A DNA stretch of 64,000 nucleotides, taken from contig OMZI01000003.1 of NCBI GenBank assembly GCA_900315485.1, positions 1 to 64,000 of the forward strand, given 5' to 3'. Each line of letters begins with the position of its first letter. The first letter of the stretch is position 1. The translations under genes were made by a program, and so were the position numbers. This document shows, one piece after another, positions 2,865 to 64,000 of this stretch. This stretch comes from an uncultured Eubacteriales bacterium (GTDB taxonomy: Bacteria; Bacillota; Clostridia; Peptostreptococcales; Anaerovoracaceae). Under the pieces are notes generated by a model. That model saw nothing but the letters and a program-made list of their open reading frames with translations. It was not told the origin of the DNA and did not search any database.

Positions 2865-5800
2865 GTGATCACGTCTTCCGGAGATACATATACGATCACA
2901 GTCAAGTATGATGAAAAAGCAGGTATTCCTGAAGGCGCAGAACTGAAAGTAAAGGAGATAGAAGAGAAGACAAAAGATTATAAAGAATACGTTAAAGAAT
3001 CTGCTGAAAAGCTCGGCGTTAAAGCAGATAATGTTGCGTTTGCAAGATTTTTTGACATAGAGATAGTTAAGGACGGAAAGAAGATAGAGCCTGAGACACC
3101 TGTTGAGGTCAGGATGGAGTATAAAGAGGCTCTGGATTTAAAAGAAAACAAGGCTCTTAATGTGGTTCATTTTGCTGATAAGGAAACTGAGGTAATCAGC
3201 GATATTGAAGTCAGTGATGATCTCAAGGAAGTAACATATGAGCAGGGAAGCTTCTCAGTGACAGGAACAGTAATAACGGATGGTTCCGCAGGTGCTCTGG
3301 GACAGAAATATGTTCTTATCGTCAAGCATGATGGCAATTATTATTCTGTAAATAGTGACGGTTCACTTGAAAGAGTTGGTGATAACTATGATCCGGCTAC
3401 AAATAAGCTTACCGTGGATCTTGAGTATCCACTGATGTGGACATATCAGGATTGCAATAAGAGGGAGAATCCTAATAATCCAAACATTGCCAGTGCACAT
3501 AATTTTCTGATTCCAACAGTGGCAAAATCGTTCAAGGGAAACAATTTACCAGATGTCTATTGCTATCGATATATTAATCCGAACAAAGATAATGGTCTGT
3601 CTGAGGAAGAAAGAAGAGAAGACTTAGACCTGAACAATCAAGGGCATCGAGCTCAATGGAATACATATATAAACAATTGTGCCAAGGATGCCGCGCTTCA
3701 TTATGAGAATAATCTAATCCACGGAGATGGTTCTAATGCGGGCAATTATATTGGAGTAAGTGCGGATGGTTCCAGAATAATCGGTAAAGTATCACAGGAT
3801 AATGCTGCGGAGCTTTATCTTGCTACTGTTGATGTGCCTGCACCTAGTACACAGACGCATAATGAGCATATGGTAAACCATATAGATATTTCGATTGATG
3901 GCGATTCTACAGTCAAGATACCACTGGCTTATGGTGAGTACTATGATGCGAATGGAAATATAATCTATACCGCAAATCAGGTTAATCATATCCTTGAAAT
4001 GAATCCAACGATTACTATTACAGAGGAGGATATGAAGCATGCGAGTATTATAGCAACTGCAAAAGATGAGAATGGAGTTAAGCAACCGGTCGACAATGCA
4101 TTTTACATTACCGGATACTCACAAAACCGTGAATCTAAGCCTAATGAAGCGCCGCAAGTGCGAGTAGAGGGGTCATTTAAGGTAGCCAATATACCATATG
4201 CAGATAATGCAGACAATAGGGAAGAAATAAGAATTGCTAGAAAAAACAATCAGATTTATTACACAGTTGAGGTAGAGAAGACAATAACTGTTGATGTCAA
4301 ATATAATGGTACTCAGCTTTATGATAGTACAGGGAAAAAACTGACCTTTACACTTCCTGTAACTTTGAGTGACAGCTTCAGTTATTGGGATGACAGAAAC
4401 GAGTGCCCTCCGCTTCATAAATATTATGATAAAGATTTGGAGTTTCATGAACCTTGGAAAAGGGGAGAAATAATGGGCGGCATAGATGAAGCTATGAGCG
4501 GCATGGACTTTGCTCTCGGTACTGCCGCATCTGACCAGCTGCACTCTGTACCTGCACTTGAAGTGACCAAGGTAATGCAGAAGGAGGATGGCTCATATCT
4601 TGAAACAACTGAAAAGCATGATGTAGGTGTAGATGTATTCTATAAGGAAAGGGCTGACAGAGAAGAAGATGCTCTCATCGGAAAAGGCGTGGATTTAGCT
4701 ATAAGCGAGGAAGAACTCTCGTCGCTGACTTCGGGTTATCAGAAACTCCATCAGAAAGATGTATCCGTCGGAACTGAAGGAATGGGCGCTTCCTATGATT
4801 ATGATGTCAGTGAGGGCATGATATACATTCAGGAAGACGAGTCAACCGTGCCTGAATATGTGAATGGAACAGACGGCAAACAGTACAAATACAAGGAAAC
4901 GAGAATAGAAACTGAGTATGTCTGGAGAACCAGGGGAGACGAGAACAAGACTCACCAGACGGTTGGAATGAAGAGTTCGCCGGAGGTGCTCGGACATTAC
5001 ACATACAATGGAAGTTCGACAGATGATGAGGGAAAGCCTCTGAATAACACATTCCTGGAATTCTACGTTTATAACGTATACGAAGAAATTCCTAAAATTG
5101 ATGTTCCTGTAGAAAAGACATGGGACGACTTCGATGCAACCGGATGTGAGTGGAAAGCTACTCTCCGCCTGCAGTGGGCACCTATATACGAAGGTCAGAC
5201 GCATACTGGCGAAGACTTCAGAGATGTAGTCGGTCCTGATGGAAAACCTATGGAAATTGAGATAACTAAAGCTATGATGGCTCAGGGAGAAGAGTCCCTG
5301 TCTCAGCGTACATTTAAGGATCTTCCAAAGTATGGTTATGATCCGATTAAAGGTGCATACAGGATTCAGTACTCAGTAGAAGAGATGCGCTACTGGGCAG
5401 TGGATAACACCGGTAAGACTTACACTTTCACGTGGCCTAATACGTACACACTATCAGAGGAAGAATTCACAGCTTTTTACCCGCATGATGCTGGCGAAAT
5501 CAGTGAGGATGACAGTGATTACTATATTGCTGTTGCTAACCATGAGAAAGCAGTAAAGGGCGAGAAATACATTGACTTCAATGTTACCAAGACTTGGAGC
5601 GATGAAGACATCCTTGATGATGACGATGCGTATGCAACCTTTAAAGTTTTCTATAATAAGCGTGTAGATCATCGTGACATCAGTCATATGGATGAAGCTG
5701 ATAAAAACGCGGTTCCTATAACGGTAACGCTTAAGGATACTAGTGGAAAGGTCTACGATACGGTAGAGGTGCAGCCACATACCGGCCTCAGAATAAGCAC

Positions 5801-8800
5801 GGTTTTAAAAGGCCGGACGGAGAGCATAAGCATTTCTGTAAGTGGAGGAGATTATACAGGAACCAATACTATTTACGCACACTATAATCTTGACGAAGAA
5901 ACTAAAGTATTTGATGGAAAAGCATATCCTCCAGCAGACTGTGACATTGTTTTAAGCGGAAATATCAGTTATCTTGACAGCGCATCTCTGCTGGATACAA
6001 CTCCTGGTACAACTCATGAAACCGATGTGGAAGTTATGGAGTTCACTCTTAATAAGGAGAACCACTGGACAAAGAATCTTGAGCTTCTGCATGAAAAGAC
6101 AATTGCCGGAGGAGATGCCAATAACGAAAATGTAGAAGTATACGAATACTACCTCAAGGAAGTAGCAAGCAATCCTGCTGGGTTTGCAGCAAAATTCTAT
6201 GAGGAAGGGACAGATAAAGAGGAAGGTGATAAATATAACCCTATATTCAAGGGAACCGACGACATTGAAGCCAGAAATGAACCGCAGAAGGATTTAGTTG
6301 TTGAAAAGGTATGGAGAGGCATTCCGGACAACACCGGATATCCTACGGTTTACTTCACGTTGTATCAGTGCAGGCCCGGCTGCGATAATGTTGGCAATGC
6401 ATCGGTATATGTTGGCGCGGAAAAACCATATGAAGGTGCTCCAAGCACGAGATATGAAAAAATACCTCTCAGTTCAGCGCCTGGGACGGATCATGACTTC
6501 AGATGGGTTTGTCCGGAGACACTTCCGGTTCGCGATCAGAATGGAAACAGACTTGCATATTTCGTAGTGGAATCGCCAAACCGGGATACTGTTGATGGTG
6601 TTACATGGAAATGTTACGGATATAGTCAGGCGCCTGATCCAGATACAAAAAAATATAAAGACGGTACCTTTGGAGACCAGAATCAGCCGTACCGGGCACA
6701 GATAGCCGGCAATGAAGGCACATTTGTTATCCACAATGCTGTGAGTGACTATATGCAGATGGATCTCCAGAAGCAATTCTTTAAGATAGGTGACGCAGGA
6801 TCATGGGGCAATGTGACGTCACAAATGTGCCATGATGCCGTTCTTGGAATAAAGGTTATTAGAAGAATTGTATACCCGGACAATACCATGTCATCATGGA
6901 GCGATTACGGGGATGAGATGCTTGTCGGCTATGGTAAAAACCAGGAGGATTATATCCTTGACAACGGAACAAATGGCTTTTACCTCGAAAATGCAGGCGG
7001 TGACTGGGCTTTCAGAATTCGTGATCAGGGTGGCGATCTGAATTCAGAGAGAATAGGTTTACCAAAAGAAGGTATAGCAAACTATAATGGTGAACTCAAA
7101 AGAGTTTATTATCAGTACTCCTTTAGGGAGACCGGTGTTTATAAGGATACTGATAGAACGCCATATCCTGATTGGGAGTGGTTTAGCAATATGACGCCTG
7201 ACAACTATTACGACAAGTATGGGTCCCACAAATTTGAACGGGAAAACACCAGTGATGATCCAATGAGGATTATGAATTATCAGGCATCTAACCTCATCAT
7301 TGACAAGAGGTGGCTGGGAGAGCCTAATGCTAAAGAAGTATATATTAAAATCTGGCGTGAAACTGAAGACGGAACAAAAGAAGACTTTACTGCCGTTATA
7401 GCTGATGATGTAAGTGGACAGTCACATCCTGCAGAAGGAAGTGAAAACTGGCAGGGATACGTTGATGATCCGTCATTGATAGACACAGATAATAAACTAC
7501 TGATAGTAAAGTCTGATAAAACTGGGAAGTGGACTTCAACGGTTAAAATTCATAATGTATTAATACGCGGACATGCTGCAAAAGGTACTGCGCCGCTTTA
7601 TACCTACTATATTGAAGAGGTTGGGTATAAAGATAAGAATGGTGCTGTTCATATGAAGCCGGAAAAAACACTCGGTGAATTTGAAACACACTATACTCGA
7701 TGGGTTAAGGATGGCTATTGGGAGGTTAATCCTCTTCCAAATGGCAAAGACAAATCTATTCAGCTAGGAGCCATCGGAGAGAACAGATTCCAGGTAATGA
7801 ACGCACCTGAGATGGATCTTACTGTAAAAAAGGAATGGCTCGACAGCGAAGGTAACCCAAGAGATGCCTGGCATGATTCGATTACCTTCCAGATTGAACA
7901 GGTAAGCAGGAAGTATGACGTTGACGGGAATCCTACTGGAGATACAAAACGCGCTCTTGTGAATATAGGAGGAAATACTACATTCAGAATATACAATACC
8001 GCCCAAAATGCTCACTGGATAATCAAACCAAACCATGACCAGCATGAGCAGTATACGATAGATACTTCGGACGGTCGCACCAATAACAATGGAGCGCCTT
8101 GGACGTTCTATGTCGATGGTCTTCAGGAAGGCTACTTCGATGCGGATAATGGAGAATGGCACTGCGAATATATCATCAAAGAGGTGAATGTTCTGAAGAG
8201 TGACGTAACAATTCAGGGCAATGGGGTTTCAACTGATGGACATACCGTAACTATCAAGAATACTTACTCCAATACCAGTGCAGTAAAGGTTAATAAGATT
8301 TTCAGCGGAATTGATTCGCTGCCTGAGACCTTCAAGATCACAGCCAGCTGGACAGATACTAATGGTAGTCATGCTTTAGAATTGAATACAAGCGGGGCAT
8401 CTGGTGACTTTGCAGGTAATGTAACATTCAGCGGAAATGGAAGTGACGGAACACCATATACGTGGACAATTAACAAAATACCAGTCCAGGATCCGCCTGT
8501 TGTGGTGACGTTCACTGAGTCGGGATTTGCTGATTCCGATGATCCGGCCAAGTACGGAGAATATACTGTAGAGGTTACAAGTGAAACAGATGCAGGTGTA
8601 TCAAATCAGAATCCTTCTACAACTGCCGCTGTTCAGGATGAAGCAATCGCTGAGGCGAACTTCACCAATACATATATTACTCCGGGAGTGGATATAAAGA
8701 TCCTGAAGGTGGACGACAAGAACGCTCCTCTGGATGGTGCGAAGTTCTCGCTCAGCAGGTGTGATACCGTGGATGGCACATATACGATCGTAACTGAGAT

Positions 8801-57953: not shown

Positions 57954-60467
57954 ATGGAAAAGAAAACACGCAATCCGCTTGGGATAAGAGTCCTGAGGGA
58001 ACTGAGGGGTGAGTGGAAAAAATACGCGGTCATATTCATCTTCCTGACGCTGATGATAGGATTCGTTTCGGGAATGTATGTAGCCAACAACTCCATGCTC
58101 ATCGCGACTGAAAGGGTCAAGACCGAAGAGCTGCGCGAAGACGGGCATTTTGTGCTTAAGGAGAAAGCGGATAAGGACCTTATAGAAGACATAGAGACCG
58201 GCGATAAGGTCGATGTCAGAGCGTACTATGTATGGGACGCATACGGAGACATAACCGAAGAGGAATACCGTGAAGCGTTCAGATCCGGGAACTACAGGGA
58301 GAGGCTGCAGGAACTGTATGACGAGGCCGACCGCAGGGCGGCAGAGGACTATGAAAATGCAGTAGGGGACTATGATCTTGATGATCCGTATTTCAGGCCT
58401 GTTCCCGTCAAAGTGTTCGAGAACTTCAACAAGGAGGCAGATGAGGACATAGATGGCGACGGGACCCGTGACTCGGGCATAAGGGTGTACATAAACCGCG
58501 ACGATATCGACCTGTACTGCATCATGGACGGAAGACCGGCAGAGACGGCTGACGAGATCATGATCGACCGCATGCACGCAGACAACAGGGGCATAAAGAC
58601 AGGTGACAGGATCAGCGTGAACGGTGAGGAATTCACCGTATCCGGACTTGCGGCATTCTCCAACTACGCTACTCTGCATGAGAAGAATACGGACATGATG
58701 TTCGATGCTTTGACCTTTGACGTGGCCATGACCACTGAAGAGGGATGGGACCGTATCAATGCTGAGACAAGGTATGAATATGCGTGGCTGTATGAGAACA
58801 GGCCGGCTGATGTGAAGGAAGAGAAGAAGCAGTCGGACAACTTCCTCAAGGCTCTCATAACCCAGGCTGCTTTTGCAGACAATGAGATAGAAGATTACGT
58901 GCCGGAATATGCCAACCAGGCGATACAGTTTGCGCCGGAGGACTTCGGCAGCGACAAGGCGATGGGCGGAGTGCTCCTGAACGTACTGATCATCGTGCTG
59001 GCGTTCATATTCGCGATCACGGAGAGCAACACTATTGCAAGAGAGGCTCCTGTGATCGGTACTCTGAGAGCTTCCGGCTACACGAGAAGGGAGCTCACTG
59101 TCAATTATATGATGGCACCTCTTATTGTCACGATCGCAGGTTCGGTCATGGGCAACATCCTCGGATATTCGTACTTCAAGAAGGTAGTTGTCGCGATGTA
59201 CTACAACAGCTACAGCCTGCCGGAGTATGAGACCGTGTGGACTCCGGATGCTTTCGTGAAGACTACGGTGATCCCGGTCATCCTGATGCTCGTGATCAAC
59301 TTCATTATAATAAGAAGAAAAATGAGATTCTCACCGCTGAAGTTCCTCAGGGGCGATCTGAAGAACTCGCGGAGACGGAAGGCGGTCAGACTGCCGGATA
59401 TAAGTTTTATCAGGAGGTTCAGGCTGCGGATATTCCTGCAGAACCTGCCGGGTTATCTGATGCTCTTCATCGGCATCGGGTTCGTTATGATCATGCTGGC
59501 GATGGCTGTAGGGATGCCGAACACACTCAGCTATTATCAGGCGCACGCCAGTGAGATGATGCTGGCGGACCACCAGGTCATACTCACTTCAGATCATGAT
59601 GAGGACGGAAATGCGGTCACTACATCGAATCCGGATGCTGTGAAGTTCAGCATGGAGGAGCTGCTTCTGGTCATAGATGACAGCGAGGAGTCGGCAAATA
59701 CCTACGGCATGGAGCCGGGCAACAGGTATGCGGGTATCCCTGCAGATCTTAAGGACGGCGAGGTGGTCATTTCATCCGCTCTCAGCGGGAAGTTCCACAT
59801 AGACCCGGGCGATGAGATCCACATGAAGGACAAGTACGGATACGACTCATACGATTTCACGGTTGCGGACATCATAGACTTTGACGGCGGCATCGCAGTC
59901 TTCATGGACAATGACAGTTTCAACAGGATTTTCGACCGGGATGAGGGGAACTATGACGGATTCTTCTCTGACAGTGAGATCACAGACATCGATGAGGACT
60001 TCATCGCGGCCGAGGTGACAAGCGAAGACATACTCAAGATGGCGGCACAGCTCGATCACTCGATGGGGGCATACATGCTGTACTTCCAGTATCTGTGCAT
60101 ACTGCTGTCGGCAGTCCTCATATTCCTCCTGACCAAGGTCATCGTGGAGAGAAATGAGAAGTCCATATCAATGGTCAAGATCCTCGGATATACCAACAGC
60201 GAAGTTGCATCCCTGTATCTTGTGACAACAACGATAGTGGTCATTATATCTGAGATAATAACAGCATTCCTGTCGAGGATCGCAATGGCAGAGATATGGA
60301 ACAACATGCTCAAGAGGATGGACGGATACTTCCCGTTCGTGCTCTCCGCTCAGGGACTGCTGAGGATGATAATACTCGTTTTCCTTGGATATATGATCGT
60401 CATGCTGATAGACTTCAGACGCATTCGCCGGATACCTATGGACGAAGCCCTCAAGAACATGGAATAG
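57954..60467 (+). CDS. ABC transporter permease, FtsX/MacB type
   Basis: The 837-residue permease has a first membrane helix at about residues 23-42, a large acidic extracellular domain (about 45-330), three helices (about 340-460), a basic loop, another helix (about 495-515), a second extracellular domain and three C-terminal helices. This double FtsX layout is common in Gram-positive peptide-sensing or exporting systems. Start ATG 57954 follows CCGGAGG. With the ATPase it forms an exporter driven by the operator-bearing promoter at 57086; the substrate is unknown. Confidence 0.9.
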   Translation: MEKKTRNPLGIRVLRELRGEWKKYAVIFIFLTLMIGFVSGMYVANNSMLIATERVKTEELREDGHFVLKEKADKDLIEDIETGDKVDVRAYYVWDAYGDITEEEYREAFRSGNYRERLQELYDEADRRAAEDYENAVGDYDLDDPYFRPVPVKVFENFNKEADEDIDGDGTRDSGIRVYINRDDIDLYCIMDGRPAETADEIMIDRMHADNRGIKTGDRISVNGEEFTVSGLAAFSNYATLHEKNTDMMFDALTFDVAMTTEEGWDRINAETRYEYAWLYENRPADVKEEKKQSDNFLKALITQAAFADNEIEDYVPEYANQAIQFAPEDFGSDKAMGGVLLNVLIIVLAFIFAITESNTIAREAPVIGTLRASGYTRRELTVNYMMAPLIVTIAGSVMGNILGYSYFKKVVVAMYYNSYSLPEYETVWTPDAFVKTTVIPVILMLVINFIIIRRKMRFSPLKFLRGDLKNSRRRKAVRLPDISFIRRFRLRIFLQNLPGYLMLFIGIGFVMIMLAMAVGMPNTLSYYQAHASEMMLADHQVILTSDHDEDGNAVTTSNPDAVKFSMEELLLVIDDSEESANTYGMEPGNRYAGIPADLKDGEVVISSALSGKFHIDPGDEIHMKDKYGYDSYDFTVADIIDFDGGIAVFMDNDSFNRIFDRDEGNYDGFFSDSEITDIDEDFIAAEVTSEDILKMAAQLDHSMGAYMLYFQYLCILLSAVLIFLLTKVIVERNEKSISMVKILGYTNSEVASLYLVTTTIVVIISEIITAFLSRIAMAEIWNNMLKRMDGYFPFVLSAQGLLRMIILVFLGYMIVMLIDFRRIRRIPMDEALKNME

Positions 60468-60580: not shown

Positions 60581-60665
60581 AAGAAAGGTTTAGAAGAAAA
60601 CAACAATAAATTGGACAACTGTGTCCGTTTGATCAATAGTAATCTGTTTGAAGGGAGTACTGCTT

Positions 60666-61547
60666 ATGACAAAGCAGGAGAGGCGCAAAACAGCCCTCAT
60701 ATTCGCTGTGATAGCAGCGGTCTTCATGATCGGGGCGATCCTGACCGGCGGCGGTGCCGGTGAGGAAGAGTCTATCCAGCAGGTGATGCGCGATGCTGTG
60801 CTGCATGATCTCAACAAGGTGAGCCTGTTCGGACTCATCGATGTGAATCCGGGACTCATGGCAGGGTTCATAGTATCAGGCATACTGATAGTCTTCGCAC
60901 TTATCTGCAGGATATTCGTTATACCAAAATTCAAAATGGTGCCGGGAAAGTTCCAGCTGGTGCTTGAGACAGCCGTCGGGCTGTTCGACAACATGTCAAA
61001 AGGAAACTCAAAGATCCACGGATTCCTCGGAGCATATATATTTGCAGCCGGTGCCTACATATTTACGGGAACGCTGTTCGAGCTCTTCGGTGTTCAGGCG
61101 GTAACGACCGGAGGTGTGTCGATATCGCTGCCTGCTCCGCTTTCGGACATCAACGGTGCCATCATGATGGGCTGCCTGTCATATCTGGTCATCATGTCCG
61201 GAGGAATCGCAGGCAACGGCATAAAGGGAATAGGAAAGACTCTGAAGGAGTACTCGCTGCCTATATCCCTCAGCTTCCGTCTTTTCGGAGCGCTGCTCTC
61301 CGGAGCCCTCGTAACAGAGCTCGTTTACTACTATCCAAAACTGAGCTACGTGCTGCCGGTGCTTGTCGGAGTTCTCTTCACACTTCTGCACGCACTGATC
61401 CAGGCATACGTACTCACGATGCTGACATCGCTCTTCTACGGACAGGTATCGGACAATACGCCGAAGCCGCCTAAGGAAAAGAAGCGCAGGAAGGGCAGAA
61501 AGGCTGAAGCAGAGAGTGCCGCAGCAGGCGAAGCTGCAGCAGCATAA
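60666..61547 (+). CDS. atpB: F-type ATP synthase subunit a
   Basis: The 293-residue membrane subunit forms the ion half-channels beside the c-ring. The essential Arg205 is in ISLSFRLFGALLSG, and a Gln in HALIQAYVLTMLTSLFYG matches the conserved last helix. The residue aligned with E. coli Glu219 is not Glu; a Glu lies three positions later (LVTELV). The protein is longer than usual, with a Lys/Arg-rich then Ala/Glu-rich C-terminal tail of about 25 residues. Start ATG 60666 has GAAGGGAG upstream. First gene of the operon; no atpI precedes it. Confidence 0.93.
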   Translation: MTKQERRKTALIFAVIAAVFMIGAILTGGGAGEEESIQQVMRDAVLHDLNKVSLFGLIDVNPGLMAGFIVSGILIVFALICRIFVIPKFKMVPGKFQLVLETAVGLFDNMSKGNSKIHGFLGAYIFAAGAYIFTGTLFELFGVQAVTTGGVSISLPAPLSDINGAIMMGCLSYLVIMSGGIAGNGIKGIGKTLKEYSLPISLSFRLFGALLSGALVTELVYYYPKLSYVLPVLVGVLFTLLHALIQAYVLTMLTSLFYGQVSDNTPKPPKEKKRRKGRKAEAESAAAGEAAAA

Positions 61548-61613
61548 ATATATAAACAACAGATACTGACGGCCGGATATACGGCCTGCTCATAACAAAT
61601 GGAGGAAACTAAA

Positions 61614-61991
61614 ATGGCTAATTCAAGGAAACTGGCAAAGATAGCACTCGTTCTCGGACTGGTGATCGCTATCATGGCAACAATCGCTACCATTGGCGTT
61701 TTTGCTGCTTCACCGGATACTTCGGCAGCTGCAGAGACTACTCAGGTAACTGCATCAGCTGACAACACAACAGGACTCAAGGCTATCGCATCCGGTATCG
61801 CTATCGGTCTTGCTGCATGCGGCGGCGGAATCGGCATGGGTATTTCCGGCGGCAAGGCAGCTGAAGGTATTTCGCGTCAGCCTGAAGCAGACGGCAAGAT
61901 CAGAACGAACTTCATGCTGGGGCTTGTATTTATCGAGACGGCGATCATTTACGCCCTGCTCGTAGTAATACTCATAATATTCGTCTTGTAG
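61614..61991 (+). CDS. atpE: F-type ATP synthase subunit c
   Basis: The 125-residue c-ring subunit has its usual hairpin at residues about 52-125: GLAACGGGIGMGISGGKAAE, the loop Arg-Gln-Pro, and the ion-carrying Glu108 in GLVFIETAIIYALL. A Na+-type site would need Gln in helix 1 and Ser/Thr after the Glu; here helix 1 has Met at the Gln position, so proton coupling is more likely. Unusually, about 50 extra N-terminal residues form a signal-peptide-like helix (IALVLGLVIAIMATIATIGVFAA) plus a Thr/Ser/Ala linker. Start ATG 61614 follows GGAGGAAAC. Confidence 0.93.
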   Translation: MANSRKLAKIALVLGLVIAIMATIATIGVFAASPDTSAAAETTQVTASADNTTGLKAIASGIAIGLAACGGGIGMGISGGKAAEGISRQPEADGKIRTNFMLGLVFIETAIIYALLVVILIIFVL

Positions 61992-62051: not shown

Positions 62052-62540
62052 ATGACAGGAGTACCACTTAATATAGACTGGCAGCAGATACTGCTTCACC
62101 TGTTCAACTTTACTATCCTCTTCGGAGCTCTCTACATCCTGCTCTACAAGCCGGTAAGAGACTTCATGGCGAAGAGGACGGCTTACTATGCAGACATGGA
62201 CACCAGGGCAGAGGATGCTCTGAAGGCCGCTGAAGAAAGCCGCGAGTCCTATGACGAGAAGGTCAGAAACTTCGATGAAGAGGTAAGGACTGAGAGAAGC
62301 AGGCTGAACAAGGAGATCGCTGAGTCGAGAGACCGCCAGATGGCAGCGGCCAAGGCTGACGCGGAGAAGATAGTAAGCGATGCCAGAACAGAAGCAGAAA
62401 GAGAAAAGGAAGAGATCATCTCTTCTGCTCAGAAGGAGATCACAGACATGGTCACAGGCGCAATGGAGAAGCTCACACTCGAGCAGTCCGCTTCGGATGC
62501 CTTCGACCAGTTCCTTGATGCTGCTGAAAAAGAGAAGTAA
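62052..62540 (+). CDS. atpF: F-type ATP synthase subunit b
   Basis: The 162-residue peripheral stalk subunit has one N-terminal membrane helix (about residues 10-30, LLHLFNFTILFGALYILLY) and a long charged helix with heptad character to the C-terminus. Length is normal. Start ATG 62052 follows TTGGAGTG. It ends only 42 bp before the fused delta/alpha gene, leaving no room for a separate atpH. The C-terminal end of b normally binds the delta C-terminal domain, which here is attached to alpha. Confidence 0.93.
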   Translation: MTGVPLNIDWQQILLHLFNFTILFGALYILLYKPVRDFMAKRTAYYADMDTRAEDALKAAEESRESYDEKVRNFDEEVRTERSRLNKEIAESRDRQMAAAKADAEKIVSDARTEAEREKEEIISSAQKEITDMVTGAMEKLTLEQSASDAFDQFLDAAEKEK

Positions 62541-62582
62541 TACCTTCTTAAGGTTAATCAAATAAGTATTAAGAGGCTTATT

Positions 62583-64000
62583 ATGGATTCAAATGTAACA
62601 AAACTCACTGCTATGCTGTACTCGAAGGTGAGACCGGATGAGAAGCAGCAGGCGAGATTCGATAAATTCCTTAAAAATAAATACGGTGAAGATATCGTCA
62701 TGGAGTGGACCGAGTCGGATGCTTTCCCGGGCGGATTCAGGCTCGAGGTAGGAAGCGACATCTATGACTGGTCCGTAGGCGGAAGGTTCCGCCAGCTGCG
62801 CGACACCCTTGTCAAGGTTCCGACGACCAACGGAAACATCATCCCGCTCCTTAAGGAGACGATCAACACATGGACACCTGAAGCTCTGGCTGAGCAGGTC
62901 GGAGAGGTCAAGACCGTAGGGGATGGTATCGCGACTGTAAGCGGCCTTGATTTTGCCACATACGGCGAGATCCTGCTCTTTGCTGACGGAGTAAGGGGCA
63001 TGGTCCAGGATATCCGTGCCGATGAGATCGGATGCGTACTCTTCAATGATGATGAGAGCGTAACTGAAGGCTCGAGTGTAAAGCGTACGGGCAAAACCGC
63101 AGGCGTTCCTGTAGGCGAAGGATTCCTCGGAAGAGTCGTTGATGCGCTCGGAGTACCTGTTGACGGGCTCGGAGAAGTTCAGGCATCAGGCTACATGCCT
63201 ATCGAGACACCGGCTCCTTCGATCATCGACCGTCAGCCGGTAGATACACCGCTTGAGACAGGCATCTTCTCGATCGACTCGATGTTCCCTATAGGCAGGG
63301 GACAGAGAGAGCTGATCATCGGAGACAGACAGACCGGTAAGACGGCTATCGCAGTCGATGCGATGATCAACCAGAACGGCAAGAACTGCATCTGCATATA
63401 TGTTGCAATAGGACAGAAGACATCTACTGTGGTTCAGGTCCAGCAGACACTGAAGAAGCACGGCGCGATGGATCATTCGATCATCGTTACCGCTTCGGCA
63501 AGTGATCCGGCTCCGCTGCAGTACATCGCTCCTTATGCAGGCTGCGCTATGGCCGAGTATTTCATGAACAAGGGCAAGGATGTCCTCATCGTATACGATG
63601 ATCTGTCCAAGCACGCTGTCGCATACCGTGCGCTGTCGCTGCTGCTCGACAGGTCGCCTGGACGTGAGGCTTATCCTGGAGACGTTTTCTATCTGCATTC
63701 AAGACTCCTCGAGAGAGCTGCAAGACTGTCAGACAGGATCGGCGGAGGCTCGATCACAGCTCTCCCTATAGTCGAGACACAGGCAGGAGACGTATCCGCA
63801 TACATACCGACTAATATCATTTCCATCACAGACGGACAGATCTTCCTTGAGTCCGACCTCTTCTTCGAGGGACAGAGACCGGCTGTTAACGTCGGACTGT
63901 CAGTATCCCGTGTAGGAGGAGCGGCCCAGACCAAGGCTATGAAGAAGGCCACTGGTACACTGAGGATCGACCTCGCACAGTACCGTGAGATGGAAGTGTT
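62583..64000 (+). CDS. atpA: fused ATP synthase delta C-terminal domain / alpha subunit (3' end cut)
   Basis: The open frame starts at ATG 62583 (AGAGG 6 bp upstream) and runs past the window end (472 codons seen). Residues 1-79 match the C-terminal domain of subunit delta/OSCP: the closing motif [19 protein letters not shown] with RQLRDTL is diagnostic. From about residue 85 the chain is a normal alpha subunit: helix [20 protein letters not shown], Walker A GDRQTGKT at 247-254 (169-176 in E. coli, so exactly 78 extra residues), then [11 protein letters not shown] and [10 protein letters not shown]. The delta N-terminal six-helix domain is missing and no atpH lies in the usual place. I translated the junction codon by codon and found no stop or frameshift. 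Confidence 0.93.

Follow-up and report, generated by a model that had tools for sequence, protein, structure and literature searches.

The frame that closes the window, a 64,000-nucleotide stretch from an uncultured Eubacteriales bacterium (contig OMZI01000003.1), encodes an F-type ATP synthase α subunit that carries the C-terminal domain of subunit δ (δCTD) in frame on its N-terminus, with the δ N-terminal domain (NTD) missing. The fusion is widespread in Bacillota, where many of the records are gut MAGs, and, judged from sequence trees, this architecture arose several separate times. We propose, with somewhat better than even confidence, that in such enzymes each α carries a b-docking δCTD and that the enzyme mounts up to three b2-a stalks.

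A δCTD-α fusion in an ATP synthase operon

The operon of the window is that of an F-type ATP synthase, with the gene order a-c-b-[δCTD-α]-γ-β-ε, and every subunit passes its Pfam cut-off. The features that concern us here are as follows:

60648..61547, + strand: atpB, subunit a, divergent (PF00119, 59 bits, cut-off 33.9; alignment)
61599..61991, + strand: atpE, subunit c, with an N-terminal extension that reads as signal-like (PF00137 at residues 63-126)
62052..62540, + strand: atpF, subunit b, 162 aa, without a δ domain (PF00430)
62571..62576, + strand: AAGAGG ahead of the fusion ATG, a putative Shine-Dalgarno-like motif
62583..62816, + strand: δ/OSCP C-terminal domain, fusion residues 1-78 (Pfam OSCP at 7-76; β-α-β-β-β-α fold in the AF2 model of a homologue)
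62817..62837, + strand: linker of about 7-8 residues (start of the TIGR00962 match; AF2 model of a homologue)
62838..64000, + strand: α from about residue 86, running beyond the window to contig position 64322

The longest atpB frame starts with TTG at 60648, and an ATG follows six codons further at 60666. Upstream of the operon (57954-60467) lies a large membrane protein that reads as FtsX/MacB-permease-like. Rfam gave no match at gathering scores.

The fusion frame (62583-64000, + strand) is open to the window edge over 472 codons. Its window part is letter-identical to locus L002, in which the complete gene, encoding 579 residues in 579 codons, ends at 6323. Pfam OSCP aligns fusion residues 7-76 with model positions 102-172 of 172, scoring 31.1 bits on the whole protein and 33.9 bits on its first 99 residues (cut-off 22.3), and the three α Pfam domains span residues 105-571. 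The α part, matched by TIGR00962 (atpA) from residue 85 with 730 bits, is complete and starts at about residue 85-86. The first ~100 OSCP model positions, corresponding to the NTD, have no counterpart in the fusion protein, and the atpF stop at 62540 lies 42 bases upstream of the fusion ATG, leaving no room for an NTD in between. These results bear out a previous sequence-only reading of the window, which had described a δCTD fused to a full α in one frame and a missing NTD. The offset that it gave between the two parts also exists, but is not "exactly 78 residues", as α homology sets in at about residue 85, behind a linker of some 8 residues.

The same reading had found no separate atpH. Indeed, an OSCP profile search of the assembly (2.52 Mb, 59 contigs, 85.6% complete) returned the fused copy as its sole match, covering the CTD only; a separate full-length δ with an NTD was not found there. 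A fused copy is likewise the only δ in G135, of the same genus (97% complete), in G040 (98%), in G417 (100%) and in G168 (100%, one contig). The window genome has one F-type α/β pair. A second ATPase α/β-family pair on contig C17 (G000:C17:66780-68807) and a single match on C21 are read as a putative V/A-type ATPase and a putative Rho, respectively. Two RnfC_N matches were also seen in this genome (G000:C47:22559-22840 and C54:22334-22522); the profile is not specific here because a B. subtilis control matches too.

An AF2 model was available for homologue P0001, which is identical to the window protein at 562 of 579 positions. With a mean pLDDT of 66.6 the model is poor beyond the N-terminal third, and only the fold of its first domain and the order of Foldseek matches were used. 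The N-terminal domain has the order β-α-β-β-β-α (block pLDDT 79-88 for residues 11-70), and a helix at residues 86-96 lies where the α N-terminal helix is expected. Between them, block pLDDT is 56-68 (residues 71-100), and the linker contains no long disordered stretch. Foldseek against the PDB placed chains I, K and J of 9jc1, an engineered PS3 enzyme, as the top three matches (573 columns), above plain α subunits; the low global TM of 0.51-0.55 (0.53-0.55 to 9jc1, rmsd 19) stems from the poorly modelled nucleotide-binding part. In a sequence search, 9jc1_I (580 aa) ranked fourth by E-value and was collinear with the window protein (residues 13-562 versus 9-562). Moreover, the N-terminal 99 residues alone match both PS3 δ (6n2y_I, E 0.002) and 9jc1_I (E 0.007).

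Distribution and origins of the fusion

Searching with fusion residues 1-100, and admitting candidates of 0.55-1.75 times the fusion length, we found 442 proteins at E<=0.01 (120 listed). Named genome records scanned with the N-terminal alignment yielded 209 relatives, the best 80 of which were fetched. A δ-type segment is in frame with α at 80 of these 80 loci, a few of them clipped by contig ends, which provides the full-length homologues that the sequence-only reading had proposed to look for. Together, the 442 proteins and the 80 in-frame loci rule out a chance or assembly-artefact fusion. Among the best 80 of 209 are many Mogibacterium MAGs, Candidatus Gallimonas, Christensenellaceae and Lachnospiraceae, and also Oscillibacter sp. 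ER4, with no δ in its genome other than the fused one, and Lachnospiraceae bacterium FE2018, which carries an ordinary operon as well; the titles of these two look like those of isolates. Two fusion MAGs are filed under Mycoplasmatota (L129, L147).

An OSCP match is present in 113 of the 148 genomes examined from the window's family. Seven encode a δCTD-α fusion (G000, G135, G091, G019, G040, G026, G102), two a full-length δ-α fusion (G107, G143), one a b-δCTD-α protein (G105), two an N-ATPase-type b-δ (G037, G112) and two a separate δ of ~153 residues that matches poorly towards its N-terminus (G011, G095); the remainder are mostly ordinary full-length δ subunits. At two loci, L014 (7166-7627, - strand) and L015 (6903-7364, + strand), a separate ~153-residue δ matches only OSCP positions 88-172. 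In a sample of the phylum, at least 14 of 398 genomes carry an in-frame fusion, that of G543 being full-length and that of G340 clipped by its contig. An OSCP search of 32 fusion genomes returned the fused copy and nothing else in 22; the other ten also have an ordinary δ, which adjoins an ordinary α (loci L162-L171).

The fused δ domain is under purifying selection, with a median dN/dS of 0.103 (maximum 0.309) and 0.057 for α, based on 186 usable pairs among 24 Mogibacterium-type sequences after saturated or low-dS pairs had been dropped.

For phylogenetic analyses, 192 α subunits were thinned by similarity to 119 and then to 96 for a quick tree, 78 were chosen by hand and type for a careful tree from which the fused domain was excluded, and 75 of 122 β subunits were used for a β tree. 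In the careful tree, δCTD-α proteins occur in four places: the window's clade A, which neighbours ordinary operons from its own family; f32-type genomes (L069, P0177); a group of several families (L066-L068, L073, L074); and G591 (L194), itself placed without support. At least four changes are forced by the starred branches of this tree, and a single fusion clade appears in 0 of 200 bootstrap trees; the quick tree and the β tree each force at least three changes. AU tests on the quick tree rejected a single origin, with p 1.1e-4 for one clade of the 43 δCTD-α rows and p 3.4e-6 when the triple fusions described below were included (55 rows). The architecture classes, in which the shortened triple fusion P0159 had been assigned on its length to the full δ-α fusions, were fixed before the tree was built, and the choice to test was made after seeing it. 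Mapping the homologues in this way had been suggested by the sequence-only reading. We read the changes as gains, because a loss would require regaining both the NTD and a separate gene.

A pair of loci beside clade A suggests, as far as tree positions can tell, that fusion preceded NTD loss: L065 is fused with most of the NTD kept (OSCP 26-171), L064 lacks the NTD, and the two group together in the α tree (98/94). The pair is not recovered in the β tree, where the neighbours of L065 and L064 are weaker and partly different from those in the α tree. The window's genus is itself mixed, with an ordinary separate δ and α in G082 (L020) and the fusion in G135 (L021), a difference that may reflect replacement of the operon by transfer.

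According to precomputed Pfam assignments, 50 proteins of mostly ~740 residues (P0121-P0170) combine an OSCP C-terminal domain and α, most of them together with ATP-synt_B, in one chain. These b-δCTD-α triple fusions are laid out as an N-terminal membrane helix, a b-like coil, δCTD and α; the AF2 model of one shows a helix at residues 2-21, long helices to residue 126, a δCTD fold at ~153-238 and then α. Nine triple fusions form one clade in the 78-row α tree (99/93). Genomic context is available from one contig of G105 among 61 relatives (8.9 kb, from a genome 79% complete, and possibly stray), so a host can be named for the triple fusion only tentatively. In the one operon seen (L019, fusion at 2961-5198, - strand), a separate 138-residue b is encoded as well. 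An unbroken triple fusion was found in none of 391 genomes of the class, where the one match, in G591, has a stop between a b gene and δCTD-α, and in none of 398 genomes of the phylum at E<=1e-12, where all six matches are b-sized frames. If triple fusions assembled like α, they would give each F1 three membrane-anchored b helices. A full-length δ with its NTD kept is fused to α at L012 (3990-6056), L013 (4854-6929) and L065 (5774-7846). As three NTDs are not expected to fit on one F1, these full-length fusions may be processed or may be intermediates.

In clade A, L064 and L065 excepted, Fo is remodelled. Subunit a measures 264-368 residues and has an additional hydrophobic segment at its N-terminus, an insertion, a deletion of ~17 residues before the RLFG helix and a change of RLFGN to RLFGA. 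PF00119 scores are 56.9-69.1 bits in nine clade A genomes, compared with 170-190 in three other fusion genomes. Subunit c is 111-150 residues long, with a signal-like extension, at 70 of 72 clade A loci with a recognised c (88 loci surveyed, 16 without a recognised c; lengths counted from the first possible start); among c subunits of ordinary operons, two of 38 exceed 110 residues. The a and c changes are absent from the other aligned fusion groups, so the fusion does not require them. Our guess is that they may adapt Fo to several a subunits.

Number of peripheral stalks

The F-type synthase structures solved to date each show a single peripheral stalk and a single a (PMC12229609), so that the c-ring determines the H+/ATP ratio. 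In an engineered PS3 FoF1, δ residues 2-104 were deleted and the rest was joined to α, on the rationale that the NTD, sitting on the threefold axis, limits the stalks to one (PMC12229609). The authors report 0, 1, 2 and 3 stalks in 15, 51, 26 and 8% of particles by cryo-EM, about two stalks on average by SDS-PAGE, a doubled H+/ATP ratio of 5.8 and an equilibrium pmf of 68 versus 133 mV; stalk loss is attributed by the authors to sample preparation (PMC12229609).

A motor normally contains three copies of α, and F1 of the window enzyme would therefore hold three b-docking domains. The sequence-only reading had drawn this consequence, and it holds, as do the δCTD-α fusion, the missing NTD and the absence of another δ from the assembly. 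Use of several docks is shown for the engineered enzyme of the same architecture (PMC12229609), and we infer it for the natural one. In the mechanism that we favour by a small degree, a δCTD would sit on every α, the threefold axis would be free of an NTD, and as many as three b2-a stalks would dock on one F1. The natural enzyme would then behave like the engineered one, with more ions per ATP and a lower equilibrium pmf, sacrificing speed so that ATP can be made at a small ion gradient; alternatively, working in reverse, it would pump to a steeper gradient. The b-δCTD-α proteins argue for this mechanism, as they would place a membrane-anchored b on every α. Against it stand the share of engineered particles with one stalk or none (66%), the ordinary operon kept by 10 of 32 fusion genomes and the divergent a of clade A, three copies of which may not fit round a c-ring. 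As PF00119 (a) matches are single in each of 12 fusion genomes searched, extra a and b would need to come from expression.

The docks might also be used singly: the fusion could merely replace the lost NTD as the anchor on F1, leaving one stalk and two idle docks, either because a and b are produced at normal levels or because Fo has space for one a. The single a gene in 12 of 12 genomes and the one b gene in most fusion operons examined are consistent with this explanation, as is the prevalence of one-stalk particles, the largest class of the engineered enzyme (51%). However, without an NTD nothing known prevents b2 from binding at the two remaining docks, the engineered enzyme averages about two stalks, with losses that its authors blame on preparation, and the b-δCTD-α proteins would anchor all three. 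We regard idle docks as possible, but on balance unlikely.

Cleavage in the linker or an internal start would instead give a free δCTD, an ordinary α and one stalk. The window gene has in-frame starts at residues 1, 11, 16 and 40 and then another at residue 140, inside the α barrel; as no in-frame ATG, GTG or TTG occurs between residues 40 and 140, an intact α without the δCTD could not be started separately from this gene. A downstream start of α, which the sequence-only reading had named as something that would speak against the fusion, was thus not found in that interval. Among 100 other fusion loci, however, 87 carry ATG, GTG or TTG in frame in the 40-codon region around the junction, 40 of the 87 with an SD-like motif, which leaves room for separate α initiation across the fusion family, and a free δCTD would explain the full-length fusions L012, L013 and L065. 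The absence of a long disordered stretch from the AF2 linker (block pLDDT 56-68, residues 71-100) and the lack of a suitable start in the window gene argue against processing, which we consider improbable. That a complete atpH in the unassembled part of the genome serves α, with the fused domain as an extra, is very improbable: the assembly is 85.6% complete and 10 of 32 fusion genomes have a second, ordinary δ, but in those ten it adjoins an ordinary α, the window genome has one F-type pair, and G135 (97%), G040 (98%), G417 and G168 (100%) have the fused copy only.

Extending the multi-stalk proposal, we suggest tentatively, and with slightly less than even confidence, that three-legged synthases may be a widespread, repeatedly evolved class in Bacillota (at least four sampled lineages with the NTD lost and the CTD moved onto α), in which the rebuilt a and signal-like-extended c of clade A would suit several a per ring and b-δCTD-α would anchor every α. 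Should natural fusion enzymes prove to have several stalks and a subunits, the ion/ATP ratio would gain a second setting, one that anaerobes near the thermodynamic limit would have found more than once, and the motor is predicted to run ATP synthesis on a weaker ion gradient. With ER4 and FE2018 as apparent isolates, the question of natural multi-stalk enzymes posed by the 2025 paper would be directly testable.

Comparison with known systems

Like the engineered δΔN-α PS3 FoF1 (9jc1), the window enzyme has lost the NTD and bears the δCTD via a short linker on α, in frame on the N-terminus of a complete subunit; domain order is the same, and the chains comprise 579 (window) and 580 residues (9jc1). 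No other δ accompanies the fusion in the 85.6%-complete assembly, nor in 22 of 32 fusion genomes. The PS3 enzyme is designed and has PS3 a and c, whereas the window enzyme is natural, with remodelled a and c; the ε C-terminal domain, removed from the engineered enzyme, is present in the window operon.

The sequence-only reading knew of no described δ-α fusion. The authors of PMC12229609, however, name natural ones, in Acidaminococcus fermentans and under UniProt G4Q3K6 and A0A1I2C5T3, which share the missing NTD with the window protein by the authors' description. No other description of a δ-α fusion was recognised among the papers that searches of an open-access library listed. The name Acidaminococcus is absent among the best 80 of 209 loci and eight protein matches, and 59 genomes of the class guessed for it, useful as a negative control only, show no in-frame fusion among the rows listed.

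In N-ATPases, δ is absent or fused with b (PMC11738941), and b-δ fusions have been described (PMC5709465). The N-ATPase b-δ (L017) resembles the window protein in that only the CTD of δ is left and is joined to a different subunit, but the partner is b, the gene order differs, with β-ε first, and its α is distant, serving as the outgroup of the quick and the careful α tree; b of the window has no OSCP match. Similarly, δ is fused to a partner in the mycobacterial b-δ protein (PDB 7jg5), but that partner is again b. To the 2025 work, in which the architecture was designed and its natural occurrence mentioned in brief, the present analysis adds the breadth of the natural fusion, its repeated origin, the remodelled Fo of clade A and the triple fusion.
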